Assembly: GCA_032622095.1 (NCBI GenBank) | Contig: CP136064.1 | Coordinates: 175,104,247 to 175,168,246, forward strand | Direction: 5' to 3' | Length of the DNA: 64,000 nucleotides | From: Siphonodentalium dalli | Lineage: Eukaryota > Mollusca > Scaphopoda > Gadilida > Siphonodentaliidae | Shown: positions 1 to 62,675 of the stretch, in pieces | Layout of the letters: the number at the start of each line of letters is the position of its first letter | Numbering within the stretch: the first letter of the stretch is position 1 | Made by a program: the position numbers and the translations under genes | Notes under the pieces: model-generated | What the model saw: the letters and a program-made list of their open reading frames with translations, nothing else | What the model was told of the DNA's origin: nothing | The model's database searches: none

Positions 1-100
1 TAGGCCCAAAACAAAACAGGCATCACAGAACAATGAATATGGCGTGCCACTCGGGACGCCGAACAAAGCGGGGCATGGAGCTCCAAGGGGGGGAGGGAGG

Positions 101-300
101 GAGCGCGATGCGTATAATTCAAAAGTGAATTGCTTTCTCAGTTACCGGAAGGAGGCAGCATTCCGGGCGGATGTAAAATGCGGACTTTAAGTTCGGCCGA
201 TACGGAACGGATCGTACCGAAAAACCGGAATGTCTGCCGGATGACAGGATCAAAGAACCACATAAATCACCCCGAACCTTATCGGCCCTGGGTGCATTAT
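101..300 (-). repeat. Ngaro A repeat, 3' copy (A2)
   Basis: This 200-bp block starts GAGCGCGATGCG and ends GGGTGCATTAT on the plus strand. It is repeated at 5482-5681 with an offset of 5381 and no difference seen. On the plus strand it is preceded by a G-rich run (86-102). Confidence 0.9.
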
Positions 301-932
301 GTGATCACTCAGATCCAAGAGACACTACCCCCACCAGTGACAGCCCTGCCACTACTGCATGGAATATTTAAATGACAACACATGAGTGGGTTATGATCTC
401 AGCTTTAATGAAATTATAAGCTTCTCCTGCAGATAGCCCATACGCATGGAAAACCAATTAAGCAGAGCCTTCGCTCTGACGAGAAGCCGAAGCAGAGAAC
501 GCTGAAGAAATACTGCTGTACAGCGCAGGCACGAGCATGGCCCGACGAGCTAAGGTACGATTCGGAGCCGGCGCCCAAGAATTGCTATGAGGCGCCCTAA
601 GCAATAAGCACACACGGCCACCAGGGAGAAGCCCAACGAGTGCGACGCAGGAATGGCAGTAGAGACCACTGGACAGCCCAACTCCCTATGGCTAAGCACA
701 GGCCTGGAATATTACACTCAGGCTACAGATCGAGAGCACTCTCAAATAAGCATAAGATGACTGCGCAGTCATAAACATACTAAGCTACTATTGATAAGCC
801 ACCCATCAAAGTTACCAGACAGGTTATAACGCTATGGCGACACTACCACTACCACTATCTGCAGGACCGCCATAGAGTGCGCAGCACTCCCCCAAACCAG
901 GAGCTCCATGCCCAAATACATCAATGAAACAG
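301..932 (-). other. 3' non-coding tail of the Ngaro element
   Basis: This is about 630 bp between the hydrolase stop and the A2 repeat. No long frame is convincing here. It should contain the B1 region in the Ngaro layout. A 14-bp stretch at 900-913 is the reverse complement of 71-84. Confidence 0.5.
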
Positions 933-1616
933 TTAAACCACCGGGAAAACCATAGTGTCAGATGCCAGGAAGGTCTCCAGGGCGCCCTGGAGACTATTCA
1001 GATAGATATCGTTGCCGACGGGGGAGAGATGGATCCCATCTGTACGATACATGCCCTTATCAGAAGCGCAAATGTCTGGGTGCTTGATGCCACGACCCCC
1101 GTGATGCAAGACGAAGCCCAACATGCGTTGGTTAAAGTCCCGGCGCTGGCGAGCACCAATACTCGGGCGATGGGCGTTGTGCCAATAGCGACGCGGGAAC
1201 ACGTGTGACCAAATAAGGGTGCAGTCAGGCAAAGTTTCCTGCACATAAGAAAGTTCCCGCTTAACACTGGCACGCAAGTCACGGTACCCACCGGCTGTGA
1301 TGTCGTTAGAACCAAGCTGGATGATGATGTGGGTAGGATGCCGAGACTGCGGACAAGCGGCGAGCTCCCGGTCGAACGTGGCGTGGAAATCGCTCCAGAG
1401 CATCCCACGAGTGCCGATCCATCTAACAGAAGCGCCGCGGCTGGACAGCTGGAGATGTTGGCCAACAGGACGCCGCACAGCACGCTGGTGAGCCCAGTAG
1501 ACGTGGGATGAACCCAAGACCCAGATAATGGCTACTGAAACGAGACTAAGCAGATGTTGAGTGGATGTATCGACGACAAACATCAGACCGCCAACGACCC
1601 CGGTGTTGGATGGCAT
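933..1616 (-). CDS. SGNH/GDSL-type hydrolase carried by the Ngaro element (ORF4)
   Basis: From the ATG at 1616 the frame encodes about 227 residues. A hydrophobic segment (about residues 20-36) runs directly into block I, where GSS in VLGSSHVYW supplies the catalytic Ser. Block III is LGSND, with Gly and Asn of the oxyanion hole, and block V is DGIHLSP with the Asp-x-x-His pair. All four SGNH landmarks are therefore present. Ngaro elements with an additional SGNH-like hydrolase frame are known from animals; the substrate is unknown. The hydrophobic segment next to the active site suggests membrane association, which is inference. The start overlaps the end of the recombinase frame. An open extension upstream to 2057 lies within the recombinase gene and is probably not used. 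Confidence 0.8.
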   Translation of the reverse strand: MPSNTGVVGGLMFVVDTSTQHLLSLVSVAIIWVLGSSHVYWAHQRAVRRPVGQHLQLSSRGASVRWIGTRGMLWSDFHATFDRELAACPQSRHPTHIIIQLGSNDITAGGYRDLRASVKRELSYVQETLPDCTLIWSHVFPRRYWHNAHRPSIGARQRRDFNQRMLGFVLHHGGRGIKHPDICASDKGMYRTDGIHLSPVGNDIYLNSLQGALETFLASDTMVFPVV

Positions 1617-2457
1617 GGTAAGGGGTGCCCAGATCCGCCAGATAGGTAGCACCACCCGAACGAAATGAATGCGGCGTGATATATTGTCGAGAGCCGGACG
1701 TACGCAAAGCCTGATGGAGCACGGCCCGAAACTGCGCGACTGTGAGCGGGGTCTGAGCCTGGTGAGAAAGGAACAGTCCCGACCGGGAGCCGCGAATGGC
1801 AAGAAATGTGGTGGCCGCGCGCAGCGGGCAGATATGTGGATCAGTCGGCAGGCACGGAATGCGAATATGAGCGGGAGGACCACATTGGTTCGTTTTAGAA
1901 TGCCGGAGCCAAACGTCAATGGCGGAGCCGCACAACGAGACATCGCGAAGAAATATAGCATGTCCAAAGTCGGCCTTGGACACAGCGGCCAGTTCCCCCA
2001 CGCGGAACAGTCCAAAAAAGGCCATCGTAAAGGCAGACGTAAACAAAGCGACCTCATGTGGCGACGAGCATATGCGAGGAAGCACGCGGAGCAAGGTGCG
2101 CAGCAAAGGTATTGTCACTGGAGCAGGACGAGATGATGAAGGCGTCAAGCGATGGACCCCGGTCAATAGTTGGCGAATGAGGTAAGTCGAAGTGGGATCT
2201 CGCATACCCCGGAGTCGATGCTGCCGACCGATGGCAGCCAGGTAGGTGGAAATGGTTGAAGCAGAATGCTGGGAGCGATGAAGCCCCGCGATAAACCCGA
2301 CGATAGCGTGTTCCGGGAGCGGCCAGGAAACGGCCAAGTGATGCTGGTGTGCGAAATCGAGATAAGCCCGTATGGCGGTGCGATACGTGCGGTGAGTTTT
2401 TGGCGCCCGGGAGGAAGTCAAAAGCAGCGTTACATGTCGACGCAGGTCCACAGGCAA
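1546..2457 (-). CDS. Tyrosine recombinase of the Ngaro element (ORF3)
   Basis: This roughly 303-codon frame is a phage-integrase-like tyrosine recombinase that would integrate a circular DNA copy without a target-site duplication. The N-terminal SAM-like core-binding part begins with HRTYRTAIRAYLDF. The catalytic part shows all expected residues: Arg I in LFRVGEL, a Lys in the beta hairpin (RHSKTNQ), H-x-x-R in TPHSFRSGGAT, a Trp in HRGRWRSD, and the nucleophilic Tyr in RRYIHST near the end. Its first codon is not ATG and the first internal Met is about 90 residues in. Expression probably depends on recoding from ORF2 (28-nt overlap) or a non-AUG start. The C-terminus overlaps the hydrolase frame by about 70 nt. 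Confidence 0.9.
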   Translation of the reverse strand: MPVDLRRHVTLLLTSSRAPKTHRTYRTAIRAYLDFAHQHHLAVSWPLPEHAIVGFIAGLHRSQHSASTISTYLAAIGRQHRLRGMRDPTSTYLIRQLLTGVHRLTPSSSRPAPVTIPLLRTLLRVLPRICSSPHEVALFTSAFTMAFFGLFRVGELAAVSKADFGHAIFLRDVSLCGSAIDVWLRHSKTNQCGPPAHIRIPCLPTDPHICPLRAATTFLAIRGSRSGLFLSHQAQTPLTVAQFRAVLHQALRTSGSRQYITPHSFRSGGATYLADLGTPYHAIQHRGRWRSDVCRRYIHSTSA

Positions 2458-4238
2458 CTGGGAAATGGTGTTGGCGTTCGGGCGGCGGACGGCGCCAGTC
2501 GACGGAAACGTTTCATCTGGAAACGAGAGAGGCTGTCAGCGAGAGCATTATCACGAGACGCGATCCATGAAGCACGCAAGGAGATGTTGTGAGACAGGAG
2601 CAGCAGGACCAGCTGGCGCAACAGGGCCATGAGCGGCTTGCATTTGGAAGTTTGGTCGTTGATGGCGCGGACCACGGTAATGTTATCACAGTGTAAATGG
2701 AGGCGATGATTCCGGAGGCGACGCCCCCAGACGCTGATGGCCACTAAGACCGGGAACATCTCGAGGACACCCATATTGCGGGTCAGGCCCAAAGCATGCC
2801 AAGGAAGGGGCCACTTGCCAAAAGCCCAAAGGCCGTTGAAATAAGCGCCAAAGCCGCCGGACTGACCACCACAAGCGTCTGTGTGGAAATTGATGTCGGT
2901 ATCATGGAGCCAGGTCGCAGAAGGGAAAAGGTAGATCCCATTGAATGACGTGAAGAACTGTAACCACGTGGCCAAATCGGCACGCATGCCAGAATTAATT
3001 CGGATTTTGTGATGCGGCTTAGAAAATCCCTGCAGGGCATCAATCAGGCGACGACAAAATGGGCGGCCCGGACGAATCGCCTTGCACGCAAATTGTAATG
3101 AGCCAATGAGCGACTGTAGTTCACGGACCGAGATTTTACGGCAGCGCAAAGCCATAGAGATTTTGGACTGAATGGCTGTGAGCTTCTCAGCAGGGAGACG
3201 CACCGCGTTAGCCAACGTATCGAGTTCGAGACCAAGGTAGCAGAGCTTCGAGGTGGGCGAGACCGTTTTTTCATGAGCAATAGGTACGCCAAGATCAGAG
3301 CAAACACGATGAAACATGTCAAGACTGTCTGAGGCCTGGGACGTGGCTGGCGGACCACAGAACAGGAAGTCATCGCAGTAGTGCAAGATGTGTGGGTTGC
3401 CGGACCGCTGCTTAACAACCCATTCCAAAAATGTCGAGAATTTTTCAAAAGTTGCGCACGACACGCTGCAGCCGAAAGGTAAGCATTTGTCGAAATAATA
3501 CATGTCGTCCAGTTTAAAACCAAGTTGATCGAAATCGCCCGGGTAGATGCGAAGATTACGATAAGCAGCCTCCAAATCCCCGCGCGCGAGCAAAGTCCCG
3601 GCCCCAAGGGACTGGATGGTGGCAACAGCAGCGTCAAAACTGGTATATGTGACAGTAGTGAATTCGCGCGGAATATGATCATTGAGCGACTGGCCTGCCG
3701 GATAGGAGAGGTGATGGATGAGACGGAATGAGTCAGGTTCATGTTTAGGCACCAGTCCAAGCGGCGACACGCGGAGCGTTGGAATTGGACGAGCACAGAA
3801 AGGACCAGCAATGCGACCAAGGCGAACTTCCTTAAGGATCTTTTCCCGGACGACCTCGGGACGGTCACGAGCAGACTTGAGGTTCGGAGCGTCAGTTGGC
3901 AGACGCGGGCCAGTATAATGGAGTGGAAAACCATGAGTAAAACCGAACCGGAGTTCCCGCGCGACTTGGTGGCGAGGGTACCTCCCAAGCCACCAACACA
4001 AATAGTCTAGATTAACGGCGGAAGGGGCGAGCTGGTAGACGCTGCTGGCGACCGCCGCGGGCTGAGCGGCGAAAGTCTTGTCCATGGGCAGCGGTTGCGG
4101 CATGAGGCTCTGAGCAGATGTTGCAGATGTGTCGAAAACGACAGTTTGGCCAGGAGCAGCGGCCGGCGTTGAATTCAAAACAGACGGGACTGGGACGGCC
4201 CGGACGCGTGGGAAAATTGTCCGCACGCCCGGAGGCAC
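2430..4238 (-). CDS. Reverse transcriptase-RNase H of the Ngaro element (ORF2)
   Basis: The open frame is about 602 codons. The RT domain runs from a FRLIHHLSYP motif through a GDLEAAY block to a YCDD catalytic box in HYCDDFLFCG, followed by the thumb. The RNase H domain shows HTDACGG, an ELEMFPV-like Glu block (VLEMFPVLVA), HCDN and SRDNALADSL, so the usual D-E-D-D acidic residues are visible. The protein should copy element RNA into DNA and degrade the template. The frame begins with GTG rather than ATG inside the Gag gene and overlaps it by 227 nt. The first internal ATG lies shortly downstream, so the true start is uncertain and ribosomal frameshifting is possible. It overlaps the recombinase frame by 28 nt. 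No stop or frameshift interrupts the catalytic core. Confidence 0.9.
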   Translation of the reverse strand: MPPGVRTIFPRVRAVPVPSVLNSTPAAAPGQTVVFDTSATSAQSLMPQPLPMDKTFAAQPAAVASSVYQLAPSAVNLDYLCWWLGRYPRHQVARELRFGFTHGFPLHYTGPRLPTDAPNLKSARDRPEVVREKILKEVRLGRIAGPFCARPIPTLRVSPLGLVPKHEPDSFRLIHHLSYPAGQSLNDHIPREFTTVTYTSFDAAVATIQSLGAGTLLARGDLEAAYRNLRIYPGDFDQLGFKLDDMYYFDKCLPFGCSVSCATFEKFSTFLEWVVKQRSGNPHILHYCDDFLFCGPPATSQASDSLDMFHRVCSDLGVPIAHEKTVSPTSKLCYLGLELDTLANAVRLPAEKLTAIQSKISMALRCRKISVRELQSLIGSLQFACKAIRPGRPFCRRLIDALQGFSKPHHKIRINSGMRADLATWLQFFTSFNGIYLFPSATWLHDTDINFHTDACGGQSGGFGAYFNGLWAFGKWPLPWHALGLTRNMGVLEMFPVLVAISVWGRRLRNHRLHLHCDNITVVRAINDQTSKCKPLMALLRQLVLLLLSHNISLRASWIASRDNALADSLSRFQMKRFRRLAPSAARTPTPFPSCLWTCVDM

Positions 4239-5286
4239 GAACCGGAGGCGGAGTCGGCTGCGGAGGTTGCCGAACCTGGGGCGTCATGACCAGCAGCCAA
4301 ATGTTAGGGTCGATGGTCTCCCAAGGAGTAGCTGTATTACCATCCCACTTCAACCGAAATTGGGTATCGTACACCTGCCAGGCAGATCCCCCACATTTAG
4401 CAGCCGCCCAACGAATGGTGCGCAGGTAACGCAAAAGGGGCTGGGCCGACGATTCAGGGTGAACGTCGAGGTATACCAAAATGAAAGTGAGAAATGCATC
4501 GGTCCACGAGTCAACAGACGTTATTGGAGCAGCATGCCCGCTTGGCGCAACACGGATTCGCCCGGAAGCAGAGACAACCAACTGATGGGGGTCAACGGTA
4601 TGAATAGAGGCGGCAGGTTCCTGCAGCTGATCCAAATTGATAAAATCGCCCCGGAAAATTTTGTCGCGAATAGATCGGGAAACATGAGAGCCATAGCCAT
4701 CTGCCGCCGTAGGAATCGGCAAGGGGGCGTCCCAAGGGGAGACCAGCGAGGATGGAAAACTAAATAAGGCATTACCCGGATCAGTTCTGTCTCTTGCCGG
4801 AGCGTTCGGTCGGTGGATCACTGACGCCACACGGGAATCCTCGCGGCGGCGGAGAGAAGTGGAGCTGTCATCAGAACTGCTGCGACGACGGGTCGACAAA
4901 GGAGACGCTGATGGTGACCTGGATCCATAGCGCGGAAACTTGGGGCGCGGAGAACCATCCTGTCGGCGACTAGCCTGGCGACGAGACTGACGACTGGGCT
5001 GACGACGAGGCTGACGAACAGGATCGCGGCCACGAGAATGGGAAACCCGGCCACGGGAGGCGCGGCGTCCCCGTCCAGAGCCACGAGCAGGCCTGCCACG
5101 CGAATGCTGACCACGGCCGCGCACCCGTGAATCAGCCACAGATGACACACTGGCCGAACCCCGAGAAGAAGGCCCAACACGGTCACTGGAAGCAGGACCA
5201 GCACGAGACGAGCTGGCAGACGCATCCTGGCGACTGCTACGAGATGAACGGTCGCGGGCCCGACCGCGAGATCCCGTACGAACCAT
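4012..5286 (-). CDS. Gag-like nucleocapsid protein of the Ngaro element (ORF1)
   Basis: The first ATG in the frame is at 5286, giving about 424 residues; the frame stays open further upstream only with non-ATG starts. The N-terminal third is extremely rich in Arg and Ser (RS and SR runs with Gly and Gln), consistent with RNA binding. The middle holds a more hydrophobic Trp-containing segment that could be the capsid-like part. Near the C-terminus there is a CCCH-type knuckle, C-x8-C-x5-C-x3-H, followed by a basic tail ending in RPFRR. The likely role is packaging of element RNA in the cytoplasm. The last 227 nt overlap the RT frame, which lies in the +1 frame, so the polymerase may be made by recoding or reinitiation. 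A truncated duplicate lies at 5760-6863. Confidence 0.8.
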   Translation of the reverse strand: MVRTGSRGRARDRSSRSSRQDASASSSRAGPASSDRVGPSSRGSASVSSVADSRVRGRGQHSRGRPARGSGRGRRASRGRVSHSRGRDPVRQPRRQPSRQSRRQASRRQDGSPRPKFPRYGSRSPSASPLSTRRRSSSDDSSTSLRRREDSRVASVIHRPNAPARDRTDPGNALFSFPSSLVSPWDAPLPIPTAADGYGSHVSRSIRDKIFRGDFINLDQLQEPAASIHTVDPHQLVVSASGRIRVAPSGHAAPITSVDSWTDAFLTFILVYLDVHPESSAQPLLRYLRTIRWAAAKCGGSAWQVYDTQFRLKWDGNTATPWETIDPNIWLLVMTPQVRQPPQPTPPPVRASGRADNFPTRPGRPSPVCFEFNAGRCSWPNCRFRHICNICSEPHAATAAHGQDFRRSARGGRQQRLPARPFRR

Positions 5287-5481
5287 AAGAGAAATATGTG
5301 ATTGCCACCGAACGACAAACACAAACAGGGAAACACGTGCGCTACCCACGAAAATAGGTAACGCCGACGGAACAGGACGCAGACAGAACGCACAAGGAAC
5401 AAGATGATAGACGAATAAATGAAGGCTGGCGAAGAAACACGGTGACGGATGGAAACAGATAGGATTTGACGACACACAACC

Positions 5482-5681
5482 GAGCGCGATGCGTATAATT
5501 CAAAAGTGAATTGCTTTCTCAGTTACCGGAAGGAGGCAGCATTCCGGGCGGATGTAAAATGCGGACTTTAAGTTCGGCCGATACGGAACGGATCGTACCG
5601 AAAAACCGGAATGTCTGCCGGATGACAGGATCAAAGAACCACATAAATCACCCCGAACCTTATCGGCCCTGGGTGCATTAT
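5482..5681 (-). repeat. Ngaro A repeat, 5' copy (A1)
   Basis: This block is identical to 101-300 and marks the 5' terminus of the element, which is read leftward. Flanking DNA begins at 5682. It probably contains the promoter of the element; no TATA box at a conventional position is obvious. Confidence 0.9.
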
Positions 5682-5759
5682 ACAAATTATTATAGCAGGG
5701 AGCAGACTTTGTTATATACAAACAATTATGAATAGGCCACTAATTTTTTTTTATGTTTC

Positions 5760-6863
5760 TCACTTCGTGTTTAAAATGTGGAAAAGTCGAAAATTGTCCG
5801 CACGCCCGGAGGCACGAACCGGAGGCGGAGTCGGCTGCGGAGGTTGCCGAACCTGGGGCGTCATGACCAGCAGCCAAATGTTAGGGTCGATGGTCTCCCA
5901 AGGAGTAGCTGTATTACCATCCCACTTCAACCGAAATTGGGTATCGTACACCTGCCAGGCAGATCCCCCACATTTAGCAGCCGCCCAACGAATGGTGCGC
6001 AGGTAACGCAAAAGGGGCTGGGCCGACGATTCAGGGTGAACGTCGAGGTATACCGAAATGAAAGTGAGAAATGCATCGGTCCACGAGTCAACAGACGTTA
6101 TTGGAGCAGCATGCCCGCTTGGCGCAACACGGATTCGCCCGGAAGCAGAGACAACCAACTGATGGGGGTCAACGGTATGAATAGAGGCGGCAGGTTCCTG
6201 CAGCTGATCCAAATTGATAAAATCGCCCCGGAAAATTTTGTCGCGAATAGATCGGGAAACATGAGAGCCATAGCCATCTGCCGCCGTAGGAATCGGCAAG
6301 GGGGCGTCCCAAGGGGAGACCAGCGAGGATGGAAAACTAAATAAGGCATTACCCGGATCAGTTCTGTCTCTTGCCGGAGCGTTCGGTCGGTGGATCACTG
6401 ACGCCACACGGGAATCCTCGCGGCGGCGGAGAGAAGTGGAGCTGTCATCAGAACTGCTGCGACGACGGGTCGACAAAGGAGACGCTGATGGTGACCTGGA
6501 TCCATAGCGCGGAAACTTGGGGCGCGGAGAACCATCCTGTCGGCGACTAGCCTGGCGACGAGACTGACGACTGGGCTGACGACGAGGCTGACGAACAGGA
6601 TCGCGGCCACGAGAATGGGAAACCCGGCCACGGGAGGCGCGGCGTCCCCGTCCAGAGCCACGAGCAGGCCTGCCACGCGAATGCTGACCACGGCCGCGCA
6701 CCCGTGAATCAGCCACAAATGACACACTGGCCGAACCCCGAGAAGAAGGCCCAACACGGTCACTGGAAGCAGGACCAGCACGAGACGAGCTGGCAGACGC
6801 ATCCTGGCGACTGCTACGAGATGAACGGTCGCGGGCCCGACCGCGAGATCCCGTACGAACCAT
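5760..6863 (-). pseudogene. Truncated duplicate of the Ngaro gag
   Basis: The frame matches the intact gag from its ATG (here at 6863) through the Arg/Ser-rich region and the Trp-containing middle. It then runs over the duplication junction into 28 nt of flank and stops, so the CCCH knuckle is lost and replaced by about ten unrelated residues. It is followed by no RT. It is a by-product of the tandem duplication and could only make a zinc-knuckle-less Gag fragment. Confidence 0.85.
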
Positions 6864-7058
6864 AAGAGAAATATGTGATTGCCACCGAACGACAAACACA
6901 AACAGGGAAACACGTGCGCTACCCACGAAAATAGGTAACGCCGACGGAACAGGACGCAGACAGAACGCACAAGGAACAAGATGATAGACGAATAAATGAA
7001 GGCTGGCGAAGAAACACGGTGACGGATGGAAACAGATAGGATTTGACGACACACAACT

Positions 7059-7257
7059 GAGCGCGATGCGTATAATTCAAAAGTGAATTGCTTTCTCAGT
7101 TACCGGAAGGAGGCAGCATTCCGGGCGGATGTAAAATGCGGACTTTAAGTTCGGCCGATACGGAACGGATCGTACCGAAAACCGGAATGTCTGCCGGATG
7201 ACAGGATCAAAGAACCACATAAATCACCCCGAACCTTATCGGCCCTGGGTGCATTAT
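7059..7257 (-). repeat. Third Ngaro A repeat, in the tandem duplicate
   Basis: This 199-bp copy of the A repeat carries a 1-bp deletion in an A run. It is followed by the same 107-bp flank found at 5682-5788. Confidence 0.9.
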
Positions 7258-7364
7258 ACAAATTATTATAGCAGGGAGCAGACTTTGTTATATACAAACA
7301 ATTATGAATAGGCCACTAATTTTTTTTTATGTTTCTCACTTCGTGTTTAAAATGTGGAAAAGTC

Positions 7365-8693: not shown

Positions 8694-9572
8694 AATCCAG
8701 GACATATCCCCACTGGACATTTCCCCACTTTCAAAAGTGGACATTTACCCACCCGGACATTTACCCACCCGGACATTTACCCACTCGGACAATTATCCAC
8801 CGGACATTTCCCCACCCTGCTAATAAAATGCTTTATGCTACATCCTCATCCGATGTAATGTTTTGACAAACATGAATGTGTGTTTTGACAAACATGAAAG
8901 TGTTTTGACAATAGTTTGGGACATCAACGCAGTTGAAAAAATGTTGTGACAATTCTGATGACAGTATGAATTCTAGTGACTGAACTCTAGACAGCCTATA
9001 TAACCTTAGAAAAGTTATCATGGAATCATATCTTCACCTCCAATCATGGAACTGATCAAGAACAATCGTGGTGGTGACAAATTATATGTCGACGGTCATG
9101 CTTATACCCTTGGTATATCTTTAATTACTTTAATAGACAATAGTTAATACCCACCAAGTGCATGAAAATATAAATGAACATCGTATGAGGAAAACATATG
9201 AAATAACAGGATTAACACGTTCATCGGTAAATACTCAATTATTCGAATAAGGAATGTATATATATGGTGAATAATTGTAATATTTTTGTTCTTTTGTCCT
9301 TATCGTGTATCGAAAGAGATATTAAGATTAAGTGATTTGTTATGTACCGTTACCATTTGTTGTTGTTGTTCCTTGTGTATTTTCTTTCATTGAAATAAAT
9401 TTGATTTTACCACACACCCATAGTAATAATCAGTCAAAGGTGGGGAAAAGTCTGGTGGGGAAATGTCCGCTTTGCTATTGAGTGATTGGGTAAATGTCCG
9501 GGTGGGGAAATGTCCGCTTTGCCAATTTCAGAGTGGGTGGGGAAATGTCCGGTGGGGAAATGTCCGGTTACC
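8694..9572 (+). mobile_element. Non-autonomous Mutator-like (MULE) element carrying a FLYWCH first exon
   Basis: A perfect 10-bp target duplication AACTAACATG flanks the 879-bp element (8684-8693 and 9573-9582). Both ends are complex inverted repeats made of several copies of a CGGACATTTCCCCAC-like unit: about five on the left (8700-8815) and six in reverse orientation on the right (9438-9567). A 9-11 bp duplication with multimeric termini fits MULEs. The interior keeps what looks like the promoter and first exon of the transposase (9046-9112). The rest of the transposase is missing, so the element would need one supplied in trans. Confidence 0.85.
9046..9112 (+). pseudogene. Orphan first exon of a FLYWCH-domain MULE transposase
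   Basis: From the ATG at 9046 the frame reads MELIKNNRGGDKLYVDGHAY and then TLG before a possible donor (G|GTATAT at 9113). The RGG-x-KLYVDGxAY pattern is the start of a FLYWCH zinc finger, commonly fused to MULE transposases. The cysteines and the Trp-x-Cys of the finger would lie in a following exon, which is absent. Its position inside a MULE-type element supports the reading. It is only 22 residues, so the call leans on context. Confidence 0.6.
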
Positions 9573-11099: not shown

Positions 11100-11549
11100 T
11101 TACTTTCTGTTATCAATCATAGGGGTGTAATGTTTCTTGGCAATGTTCAATACATCACTTGTTTTTGCTGCTTTCTTTCCTATGACGTTCAACTTTGGTT
11201 GAAACAGTTGCTGCAAATAGGTTTCCATACAAAGTCTCTGTGCCATCGTGCACCATTTTATAGAATGGGAAACAGAGAAGTTTCCCCTTCCACAAACATC
11301 CAGATGTTCACTAAGGGGAGTCTTGCGGTATACATCATGGCGTATATGTTGACGGTGTATCTGCATTCTTGCCGCCAGGTTATCAGTCTGTCCAATATAG
11401 GACTCTCTACACGATGCACATTGTATATTGTATATATTTTGTATGAGATTCTTTGACTTGAAATTTATGTCTGCATTTCTAATATGGGGAATGTCAGGTT
11501 GGAAATTTCCAACAGTTGGAGAGCTTGAAGTACTGTATGTAAAATAATT
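11100..11549 (-). pseudogene. GIY-YIG nuclease domain relic, C-terminal part of a retroelement protein
   Basis: The minus-strand frame is open for about 150 codons, although its first Met comes only after the GIY-YIG motif. It reads NLIQNIYNIQCASCRESYIG then QTDNLAARMQIHRQ, which fits the GIY-YIG core (Y-x-I-x-C, YIGQT, an Arg/His-rich helix). Downstream lie SEHLDV and ETYLQQLFQPKLNV, matching the terminal E-x-x-L-x-x-P-x-LN pattern of GIY-YIG domains found on Penelope-like and related retroelements and on single-exon mollusc genes. No reverse transcriptase is visible upstream and no ATG starts the domain, so it is read as a fragment. It lies antisense, just upstream of the first recognised transporter exon. 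Confidence 0.65.
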
Positions 11550-11584
11550 TGGTCCAGATGAGAGCAGACGGGCTATGAGTTATT

Positions 11585-26900: not shown

Positions 26901-29900
26901 TGGTAGCTGGGTCTACTTTTATCACAGGAACAATATGGGCGGGTCCAATTTCACTTACGACCATGTCCTTGACCTTGACCTCGCTCATATACTCTTATAT
27001 AGGCATGTTTCTGGACCTCGACCGATCCGATTAAAATTTGGTATAATGTGGGCCTACTTTGATCCTGAACACTATGGGTGGGTCCAATTTCATGTACGAC
27101 CGTGTCCTTGACCTTGACAATGTTCGCTCATAAAGGCATGTTTCCGGGCCGATCAAACAATAGTTTGTCCAGGCGGAGACGATCACAAATAAATCCCTAG
27201 TAGCCCGGACGAAGAGGGGCACATCAGCTATATAGTGTTGTCTATTTTCGTAGACGTATTTTACTCAACAAAAAGCCAAAAATAAGACTTTAAAAGTTCG
27301 TTGTCACCCATACAATTTTCTGATTACGCAGTTTATGAAGTTTATGTCGGGCATCCGCTTGCTGGATGCTGATTATCTATGTTTAATTCTAGAATTCTAG
27401 AATATGCAGCTATTAAAACATATACAAGCACGATAACCTTTCACTCAATCATATTTTAGATTGACTAGGGATCTCTGATTTTTTAATAGAAGATATAAAA
27501 TAGCAAAGAATCCTACAGTTACAAATATTATTATATGGATGTTAAACCTTTGGTTACTAAATGAGGTGTAATGAGAATTGACTTGAATCCTATTGATTAA
27601 TTTATAGGAATGCTTAGCTATTAAGTTCAACAAGCAGTAACATATAAAAAAGAGAAAAGAATAATGCAGTTACAATTATTATTATATGGATGTTAATCCT
27701 TTGTTGACTAAATGTGCTGTAATGAGCAGCGACTTGAATCCTATTTATTCATTTGTAGGAATGCTCAGCTATTAAATTCAACATGCAGTAACAGATTGTT
27801 TGAATTATTAGCTAAACATTCATACAAATGAATCATTAGAAATCAGTGTTATGGGTGTCTGAACCTGGCTATTATAAGGCACATTATTATTCCTCGCTGA
27901 TATCGTGTCAAGTGAGCAGGGACGTGGGCTGGAGGGTCTCCAATGTTGGGGCGTCCACCATGGAATTTCCAACCGCACCATCCCTTTGAAACAGACCAAA
28001 CTCATGCACAAGGCCTGGGCTTTGGTTTTTAGTCGAGTTTTTCAAAAACTCAACTTATGGTTTGACGAGGGACGGTTGGCGGGCGGGCGGCGGGCGGACC
28101 TAAAGAATGCCTTATAACTTTGACATTTGTGAACGGATTCAAACAAAATTTGGTATGTCAGTTGCTCCCAATGACTATTTACTGCCTGTAGAAAATGGGT
28201 CACGTCCGAACTTTTTTACAAGAGTTATCCATCTTAGATGGTTTTTAGTTAAGTTTTTCACCATTAGCGCGATAACTCACGCAAATATTAACCAATTTCA
28301 ACAATATTTGGTATATGAGACTCTTGCAACAATATCTCGGACGAGTTCGAAAACCAGGTTTGTCTGAATTTTTTTTCCGGAGTTATGGGTCTTAGTTTGT
28401 CTATTTTTAGCAATTTTATCACCGTTAGCGCGATAACTCGATGAAATATTAACCGATTTGAACAATATTTGGTATATGAGTCTCCTGCAACAATATCTCG
28501 GACGAGTTCGAAAACCAGGTTTGTCCGAATTTTTTCGCGAAGTTATGGGTCTTAGTTTGTCTATTTTTAGCAATTTTATCAATGTTAGCGCGATAACTCA
28601 ATGAAATATTAACCAATTTCAACAATATTTGGTATATGAGTCTCCTGCAACAATATCTCGGACGAGTTCGAAAACCAGGTTTGTCCGATTTTTTTTCGCA
28701 GAGTTATGGGTCTTAGTTTGTCTATTTTTAGCAATTTTATCACCGTTAGGGTGATAACTCGATGAAATATTAACCGATTTCAACAATATTTGGTATATGA
28801 GTCTCCTGCAACAATATCTTGGAGGAGTTCGAAAATCAGGTTTGTTCAAAATTTTTTCGCAGAGTTATGGGTCTTAGTTTGTCTATTATTAGCAATTTTA
28901 TCACCGTTAGCGTGATAACTCGATGAAATATTAACCGATTTCAACAATATTTGGTATATGAGTCTCCTGCAACAATATCTCGGGACGTGTCCGATTTTTT
29001 TTCGCAGAGTTATGGGTCTTAGTTTGTCTAATTTTAGCAATTTTATCACCGTTAGCACGATACCTCGATGAAATATTAACCGATTTCAACAATATTTGGT
29101 GTATGAGTCTCCTGCAACAATATCTCGGGACGAGTTCGAAAACCAGGTTTGTCCGAATTTTTTTCGCAGAATTATGGGTCTTAGTTTGTCTATTTTTAGC
29201 AATTTTATCACCGTTAGCGCGATAACTTGATGAAATATTAACCGATTTCAACAATATTTGGTATATGAGTCTTCTGCAACAATATCTCGGGACGAGTTCG
29301 AAAACCAGGTTTGTCCGAATTTTTTTTCGCAGTGTTATGGGTCTTAGTTTGTCTATTTTAATCACAATTTTATCACCGTTAGTGCGATAACTCAATGAAA
29401 TATTAACGGATTCAATTGATATTTGGTAAATAGGTCTATTGCAATAATATACCACCGTTCAACTTTTTTTCCCGGAGTTGTGCACCTTATTGGCAGAAGT
29501 TTGGTTCGACTGCCAAAAAACTCGACAAAAGCATCTTAGATGCGTACCCCTTGTTCCCAACTGCATGACACATTATAGCACTAGATTGTATGCCATTCTG
29601 AAGTGAATTGATCAGTAGCCTTTGATTGGCCACCATGCAAACTGGGGGAGAAACTCAGGATACATGGGCCCAGTGAGAAAATGTGGATATCTGAACCTGA
29701 AAATCATCTAGACTGGCTTCAAGATTCCCAAGTGTTTGAAATTTCCAACCCCCACAAGATTGGAAATGTTCCCAACAGATGGAGAGAGAGAGAGAGAGAG
29801 AGATTATTTATTTTGCAAAAGAGCATACATTATTTAATACAAAGCATTTTAATAAAATGGAATTAGAATCTTTGTCCATTAAAACCAGTTTCTTGCCAAT

Positions 29901-36358: not shown

Positions 36359-36523
36359 TTAACCCTTTAATGACTGGAGCTTCCTGAATTTTTGCAAAAA
36401 CCCTGTGCCAATGCATTCTCTTATATATGGGAGTCTCATAGAGATCCTCTCATATATAAGATAATGCACTGGCACAGGATCTTTAATGCTGTACCAGCAT
36501 GGCTCCTGTCATGAACGGGTTAA
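36359..36523. mobile_element. TTAA MITE, piggyBac-like, family 1, short copy
   Basis: The ends are TTAACCCTTTAATGACTGG and GTCATGAACGGGTTAA. Only one foldback remains. Confidence 0.85.
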
Positions 36524-53709: not shown

Positions 53710-54916
53710 TTAACCCTTCCATGACTGGAGCTGCCTGAAATTTTGCGAAAACCCTGTGCCAATGCATTCTCTTATATATGCAAGTATCCCATAGGGAGCC
53801 TCACATATATAAGAGAATACACTGGCCCAACAATATTTACATGGACCTTGTAAGCCATTGTTAGCTCAACTTTACTTTGTAAAGTTTGAGCTATTGCCAT
53901 GGCTTGGTATCTGTCATCCGTGTGTGATTCGTCAACAATTTCCTTTAGCACGGGCTACAGGTCGTACCTTTGGTCGGATCATTATCAAATTTGTCATAGC
54001 TATTGACATGTAGATGGGAACAAGTCATTTGGGGGTTGTTCGGCCAAAAAACATGGCCGCCAGCAGCCATCTTGGATTTTACTCTTTGCATGACTAAATC
54101 CTTTGGCGCGGGCTACAGGTCGTACCTTTGGTCAGATCATTATGAAATTTGTCACGGCTGTTGACATCGACATATAGATGGGAACGAGTCATTTTGGGGT
54201 CATTCGGCAAAAAAACATGGCCACCAGCAGCCATCTTGGATTTCAAAATTAAATCCAATAGCACAGCTACAGGCCATACTATTTGTCTGATCATCATGAA
54301 ATTTGTCATGGATGTTAATATTGACATGTAGATGGGAACGAGTCATTTTGGGGTCATATGGTCAAAAAATATGGCTGCCAGCAGCCATCTTGGATTTTAC
54401 TCTTTGCATGACTAAATCCTTTGGCACGGGCTACAGGTCGTACCTTTGGTCAGATCATTATGAAATTTGTTGACATTGACATATAGATGGGAACGAGTCA
54501 TTTTGGGGTCATTCGGCAAAAAAATATGGCTGCCAGCGACCATCTTGGATTTCAAAATTCGATACATTAGCATGGGCTACAGGCCATACTGTTTGTCTGA
54601 TCATGATAAATTTGTCGTGGATGTTAATATTGACATGTAGATGGGAACGAGTCATTTTGGGGTCATTCGGCCAAAAAACATGGCCGCCAGCAGCCATTTT
54701 GGATTTGACTCTTTGCATGACTCAATTTTTTGGCACAGGCTACAGGTCGTACCGTTGGTCATATCTTTATCAAATTTGTCATGCCTGTTAACATTGACAT
54801 GTAGATGGGAAACAAGTAATTTTGGGGTCATTCGGAAGACTCGCATATATAAGAGAATGCACTAGCACATAATCTTTAATGATGCACTAGCACAGCTCAC
54901 GTCATAAAAGGGTTAA
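53710..54916. mobile_element. TTAA MITE, family 1, split by a tandem-repeat insertion
   Basis: The left half runs from TTAACCCTTCCATGACTGG (53710) to about 53870. The right half resumes at about 54837 with ACTCGCATATATAAGAGAATG and ends GGGTTAA at 54916. The intervening 965 bp belongs to a different repeat family, so the MITE is older than the insertion. Confidence 0.85.
53871..54836. repeat. Six-unit tandem array, about 157-bp period, GCAGCCATCTTGGAT family
   Basis: CTACAGG recurs at 53955, 54113, 54267, 54431, 54577 and 54740 (spacing 158, 154, 164, 146, 163). Units come in two types, GTCGTACCTTTGGTC and GCCATACT(A/G)TTTGTC, arranged A-A-B-A-B-A. Each holds ACATGTAGATGGGAACGAGT and CAGCAGCCATCTTGGATTT. 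Confidence 0.9.
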
Positions 54917-62407: not shown

Positions 62408-62675
62408 TTAACTCTTTTATTTCATGACTGGAGCTTCCTCAAATTTTGCGAAAACCCTGTGCCAATTCATTCTCTTAAATATGCGAGTCTCCCATAGGGA
62501 GCCTCGCATCTATAAGAGAATGCATTGGCCTAACAATATTTAAATTGACTTTGTAAGCCAGTACATTCTCTTAAATATGCGAGGTTTCCTATAGGAGACT
62601 CACATATATAAGAGAATGTACTGCCACAGGACCTTTAATGCTGCACTAGCACAGCTCCTGTCATGAAATGGTTAA
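62408..62675. mobile_element. TTAA MITE, piggyBac-like, family 1
   Basis: The left end TTAACTCTTTTATTTCATGAC has a 5-bp insertion and the right end is GTCATGAAATGGTTAA. Two foldbacks are present. Confidence 0.8.

Follow-up and report, generated by a model that had tools for sequence, protein, structure and literature searches.

Is the stretch at positions 101-5681 a Ngaro-type retrotransposon with every catalytic motif intact, and could it be active? Both had been proposed in a first-pass annotation, on the grounds of undamaged catalytic motifs and identical terminal repeats. We analyzed the window (the whole stretch of DNA, 64,000 nt), and our preferred reading, to which we assign a probability of about three in four, is that the locus holds a Ngaro-group tyrosine-recombinase retrotransposon with an SGNH hydrolase frame, which inserted recently and whose 5' part was then duplicated head to tail. 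This reading is based on the order of Gag-like, reverse transcriptase-RNase H, recombinase and SGNH frames, with no methyltransferase match in ORF2; on recombinase residues common to the element and bacterial integrases; on identical 200-base A repeats, with A1 placed at a step in GC content; and on the same overlapping four-ORF plan in Xenopus DIRS-53_XT (PMC9210276, excerpt). Against it we count that the RNase H and hydrolase Pfam matches lie under curated cut-offs, that no B1/B2 pair is visible, and that all neighbouring frames overlap, whereas Ngaro elements are described as usually free of overlapping ORFs (PMC3266345, excerpt). The features are as follows.

1-100, no strand: GC-rich stretch (0.58) beyond A2, perhaps the first part of a B2 truncated by the window edge
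101-300, minus strand: A2, internal A copy near the 3' end (identity with A1)
301-932, minus strand: non-coding 3' segment that separates ORF4 from A2, the expected place of B1 (no above-chance direct match to 1-100)
933-1616, minus strand: ORF4, SGNH/GDSL-type hydrolase, 227 aa from the ATG at 1616, overlapping the end of ORF3 (Lipase_GDSL_2; block residues)
1546-2535, minus strand: ORF3, 329 aa between stops, encoding a tyrosine recombinase (Phage_integrase, Phage_int_SAM_1; alignment with three plasmid integrases)
2430-4283, minus strand: ORF2, 617 aa between stops with its first ATG at 4103, encoding reverse transcriptase and RNase H (RVT_1, RVT_3)
4012-5286, minus strand: ORF1, Gag-like, 424 aa (open frame from the ATG at 5286)
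5482-5681, minus strand: A1, terminal direct repeat at the element's 5' end (200/200 identical to 101-300)
5682-5788, no strand: 107 AT-rich bases (GC 0.29) outside A1, most likely host flank (identical repeat at 7258-7364)
5789-7364, minus strand: second duplication unit, holding a Gag frame that stops short of the finger, an A1 that lacks one base of an A run, and the flank of 107 bases

Coding frames and their domains

The four minus-strand frames follow one another in the order Gag-like, reverse transcriptase-RNase H, recombinase and SGNH hydrolase, and none contains an internal stop, in agreement with the first-pass annotation. GC content is 54-56% across positions 1-6000 and 32-41% from 8001 onward. 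Judged by its content, the window would be eukaryotic. Long frames here are partly due to composition: in 500 order-1 Markov sequences the median length of the longest frame was 236 aa and the maximum 480 aa, and among the top observed frames (617, 495, 393 and 329 aa) only the first two beat every simulation. The case for the element rests more on domain matches than on frame lengths.

ORF1 has an N-terminus rich in arginine and serine. The whole frame gave no Pfam match at E 1, and the finger region matched Muscleblind (E 0.11) and zf-CCCH_10 (E 0.033, under cut-off) weakly. A Gag knuckle had been claimed for this protein, but the cysteine motif at 4123-4182 reads C-x7-C-x4-C-x3-H, a CCCH-type pattern, and not the CX2CX4HX4C knuckle that is described for retroviral Gag and some tyrosine-recombinase retrotransposons (PMC6681497, excerpt); its weak matches are likewise to CCCH fingers.

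ORF2 matched RVT_1 at 8e-10, over the curated Pfam cut-off, and RVT_3 at 0.0011, under the cut-off (0.00029 when the C-terminal piece was searched alone). The YCDD motif of the reverse transcriptase, named in the earlier claim, was found at 3369-3380, and the four acidic residues of RNase H, D/E/D/D, are also present, with codons (low coordinate) at 2877, 2760, 2685 and 2550 (or 2535). The frame stops 34 aa beyond the last of these. As a criterion of class we used the methyltransferase domain, which DIRS-like and PAT-like elements carry and Ngaro-like ones lack; Pfam gave no match to it in ORF2 (E up to 1) or in its C-terminal piece (E up to 10).

ORF3 matched Phage_integrase (1.6e-8) and Phage_int_SAM_1 (3.4e-7), both over curated Pfam cut-offs, while NCBIfam returned Xer-type matches far under the family cut-offs. 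All residues of the proposed R-K-HxxR-W-Y set are present, the codons of R, K, H, R, W and Y lying (low coordinate) at 2002, 1894, 1669, 1660, 1591 and 1567. When plasmids were searched with the recombinase, 110 records were obtained; the five matches listed were all annotated as integrases or recombinases, at 25-29% identity, and three of these five were aligned with the element. R178, K214, H289, R292 and Y323 were identical in 4/4 sequences, and W315 in 2/4. The residues named here for RNase H, recombinase and SGNH hydrolase are presumably the catalytic ones, those of the recombinase being also aligned. The bacterial integrases share only the recombinase with the element. Together, a reverse transcriptase, an RNase H (below its Pfam cut-off) and a tyrosine recombinase in place of a DDE integrase are the components of a Ngaro-like element of the order DIRS.

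The frame of ORF2 is +1 relative to ORF1, and that of ORF3 is -1 relative to ORF2. The first ATG of ORF3, at 2205, corresponds to residue 111 and falls within the recombinase region, leaving the frame with no usable ATG of its own; ORF3 would therefore need to be reached from ORF2 by frameshifting, splicing or re-initiation. Slippery heptamers of the forms NNNAAAN and NNNTTTN (first three bases alike) were absent from the ORF1/ORF2 and ORF2/ORF3 overlaps in any frame, and a frameshift of another type, splicing or re-initiation is possible. In the hydrolase-bearing Ngaro families of Xenopus every ORF overlaps (PMC9210276, excerpt), and in fungal Ngaro elements the recombinase frame is either in frame or shifted (PMC3783388, excerpt).

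ORF4, whose frame also has ATGs before 1616, is placed after the recombinase and carries the block residues, as is characteristic of hydrolase-bearing Ngaro elements. Its match to Lipase_GDSL_2 stayed under the 32.9-bit cut-off in both Pfam runs (1e-5 in the first; 3e-6 and 28.3 bits in the second). The SGNH blocks reported earlier could all be located, with S, G, N, D and H codons (low coordinate) at 1509, 1413, 1305, 1038 and 1029; the assignment of these motifs as SGNH blocks is our assumption. Among solved structures, the hydrolase matched just two sequences, both of polyprenyl diphosphate synthase (E 0.18 and 0.19), which were taken as chance. Two AlphaFold models predicted without an alignment had mean pLDDT values of 41.1 and 35.3, too low for use. 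With the poor hydrolase model, Foldseek gave 710 matches up to E 10, of which none reached 0.001; the best was an XPF nuclease (E 0.034), and the last among the best 50 of the 710 was 2wao_A, a family-2 carbohydrate esterase (E 0.40), which we take to have an SGNH-type fold. This result was counted neither way.

By likeness to the zebrafish ZfL2-1 esterase, ORF4 would probably be an esterase of low turnover with lipids or acyl groups as its targets. The ORF1p esterase of ZfL2-1, from the CR1 clade of LINEs, is also an SGNH-type hydrolase of a retrotransposon, with catalytic S, H and D and oxyanion G and N, but there the hydrolase forms part of ORF1p, as one of its domains, and the element is of the non-LTR type, whereas here it is the separate last ORF of a tyrosine-recombinase element (PMC3905857, excerpt). 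The excerpted text of PMC9210276 describes the Ngaro hydrolase as without proven function.

Terminal repeats and the 3' end

The A repeats had been said to look identical, and A1 and A2 do agree over 200/200 bases, which bounds their divergence at less than about 1.5% (95% bound). GC content is 0.495 within A1 versus 0.29 in the 107 bases outside it. The insertion is probably recent. The fold of the A-repeat RNA (z -1.73, with 10/200 shuffles equally good) was not taken as significant.

The published Ngaro plan is A1-[ORFs]-B1A2B2 (PMC8547959 and PMC9210276, excerpts), and the sequence just past A2 should therefore recur before A2. The A pair of this arrangement is present. For the B pair, positions 1-100, the only bases visible past A2, reached a best direct local score of 22 with 301-5481, exactly the median over 200 shuffles; the same 100 bases shared zero direct 10-mers with 301-5481, and blastn with them gave one direct 15-base match at E 0.52. 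With just 100 bases to compare, the failure to see a B pair does not amount to its absence. In the inverse orientation, a 14-base match between 71-84 and 900-913 had an E value of 0.003 against 301-4211 and of 0.055 against the window; with gaps it scored 29, above every one of 300 shuffles against 301-960 (maximum 28) but not above all of 200 against 301-5481 (maximum 37), and we regard it as borderline. A DIRS-like element would have inverted terminal repeats together with an internal complementary region; inverted repeats of at least 20 bases were absent from positions 1-7000, in which the 3' end is incomplete.

These observations bear on whether the copy was damaged at its 3' end. If B2 had been lost or replaced right after A2, no normal circle could form and the copy would be dead despite its open frames, an alternative that is compatible with our preferred reading and that we hold as tentative but serious. 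It is favoured by the lack of an above-chance direct match of 1-100 in 301-5481, though 632 non-coding bases occupy the place of B1, and the borderline inverted match may hint at a rearranged end. Set against this are the mere 100 bases visible past A2, whose GC content moreover resembles the element and not its AT-rich surroundings. The 3' end of the putative element runs off the window edge, and its completeness is unproven.

Probable duplication of the 5' end

Positions 4212-5788 are repeated head to tail at 5789-7364, the two units abutting, with 1573/1577 columns identical. The extent first annotated, 101-5681, leaves out this repeated front end. The units differ at four sites, 4478/6055, 5141/6718, 5481/7058 and 5601/7178, of which three are transitions and the fourth is a single base of an A run; the three substitutions in 1576 positions correspond to 0.04-0.56% (95%). 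Two of these substitutions fall in the Gag frame and alter the residue (L/S and S/F). No exact microhomology was found at the joint, and a similar GTGG(G)AAAA(TT)GTC string occurs in both break regions.

Both units end in the same 107-base, 29% GC stretch outside A1. Since two abutting units share this end, a duplication is indicated, and since the stretch would be host flank, the duplication would have followed insertion. The simplest reading is that the element inserted into AT-rich host DNA and that a local duplication across its 5' edge took place afterwards. The duplicate is the sole near-identical copy within the window: neither blastn (E 0.1) nor tblastn (E 0.05) found others in 7365-64000. 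Copy counts by identity could mistake such a duplicated front end for a second insertion.

An assembly artefact, in which two haplotypes or a mis-joined read were placed serially to give the unit at 5789-7364, is unlikely in our judgement; the small number of differences and the joint free of exact microhomology would suit it, and nothing positive speaks against it, a real tandem duplication looking alike. We consider it quite improbable that the Gag frame of a near-identical element was the insertion site of the intact one, the 107 bases then being element and not host sequence. The outer edge of the intact unit (5788) does exactly adjoin the truncated one, whose remainder could sit left of the window. 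However, the 107 bases have a GC content of 0.29 and start exactly where the A1/A2 identity ends, the Gag frame is not continued by positions 1-100, and A1 comes first in the published plan (PMC9210276 and PMC8547959, excerpts).

Related elements, proposed cycle and the rest of the window

Relatives were sought in viral, prokaryotic, phage and plasmid collections, by methods sensitive to close relatives alone. In viral contigs, pattern matches (reverse transcriptase 2, recombinase 19, Gag 15, hydrolase 11, reverse transcriptase core piece 6) yielded no confirmed relative and one degenerate pattern gave 0 matches; in prokaryotic genome contigs, none of the pattern matches to the reverse transcriptase (12) or its core (92) was confirmed. 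The reverse transcriptase had no match in phages. Searches of solved structures by sequence with the reverse transcriptase and recombinase gave nothing at E up to 0.1, and in NCBIfam neither ORF1, ORF2 and ORF4 nor the second, duplicated Gag frame had a match.

Xenopus DIRS-53_XT also has overlapping Gag-like, reverse transcriptase/RNase H, recombinase and SGNH ORFs, a likeness of plan, the sequences not having been compared; its identical A repeats measure 236 bp as against 200 here, and it has B repeats of 152 bp, of which none is seen here in the 100 bases visible past A2 (PMC9210276, excerpt). The consensus of DIRS-54_XT is also given without split repeats, yet its copies 5 and 10 have them (PMC9210276, excerpt). 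We give hardly any weight to the reading that the element has a simple A…A terminal pair without B repeats and would be a hydrolase-bearing tyrosine-recombinase retrotransposon completing its DNA without split repeats. An amphioxus Ngaro-like element beside the VCBP2/5 cluster resembles the present one in its Gag, reverse transcriptase/ribonuclease and recombinase ORFs and has an unusual arrangement of split direct repeats, but three ORFs are reported for it and the word hydrolase is absent from the main text (PMC2632668, excerpt). For Lottia and Nematostella, the excerpted text of PMC4157794 gives 53 and 114 Ngaro instances, respectively, and does not state whether they have a hydrolase.

The Ngaro assignment of the first-pass annotation is borne out by the reverse transcriptase and recombinase, the A pair, the frame order and the lack of a methyltransferase match. 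Its view that intact, hydrolase-bearing members are uncommon finds is not supported: 20 potentially active copies of hydrolase families are already described in X. tropicalis (7) and X. laevis (13) (PMC9210276, excerpt). The element is a well-preserved example of an already known kind of retrotransposon.

If the element follows the published models of its group, ORF1 would supply the particles or complexes in which ORF2 reverse transcribes the element RNA, circular DNA could form through the repeats, and ORF3 would insert the circle by site-specific recombination. Reverse transcription, a circle formed through the repeats and insertion by the tyrosine recombinase make up the general cycle of such elements. 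After insertion, as the shared flank suggests, the 1577-base stretch, which takes in the 5' end plus 107 bases of flanking host DNA, would have been duplicated head to tail. The element may or may not be active: its 3' end is incomplete in the window, and its sole near-identical copy there is the abutting duplicate.

In the window as a whole, neither Rfam (at gathering score) nor ARAGORN gave a hit. Ten other frames, drawn from a list of 37 with a length of at least 90 aa, were searched against Pfam, and the one match that passed its cut-off was to GIY-YIG.

GIY-YIG reading frame

An open frame on the minus strand (11100-11579) matches the GIY-YIG domain family (Pfam PF01541) at E 4.2e-7, which passes the cut-off. 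This frame may be the 3' terminal part of a Penelope-like element.

Inverted match flanking A2

An exact inverted match of 14 bases (71-84 versus 900-913) places one arm on each side of A2, the 200-base repeat copy near the 3' end of the Ngaro-type element, and falls where B repeats would be expected.

Tandem and dispersed repeats

Tandem arrays were observed in the window:
8700-8817, short array, unit GGACATTTACCCACCC
9439-9568, short array, unit GGTGGGGAAATGTCC, the near reverse complement of GGACATTTACCCACCC
28242-29479, longer array, unit of approximately 161 (also 468) bases
53941-54835, longer array, unit of approximately 154/309 bases

The two short arrays form an inverted pair spaced by approximately 620 bases. 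Segment 7898-8000 is matched by 24 other pieces, scattered on both strands (27-54 bases, 79-93% identity; for example 36359-36410, 53710-53761 and 62492-62542), and this set may represent a short interspersed element or one with inverted repeats.
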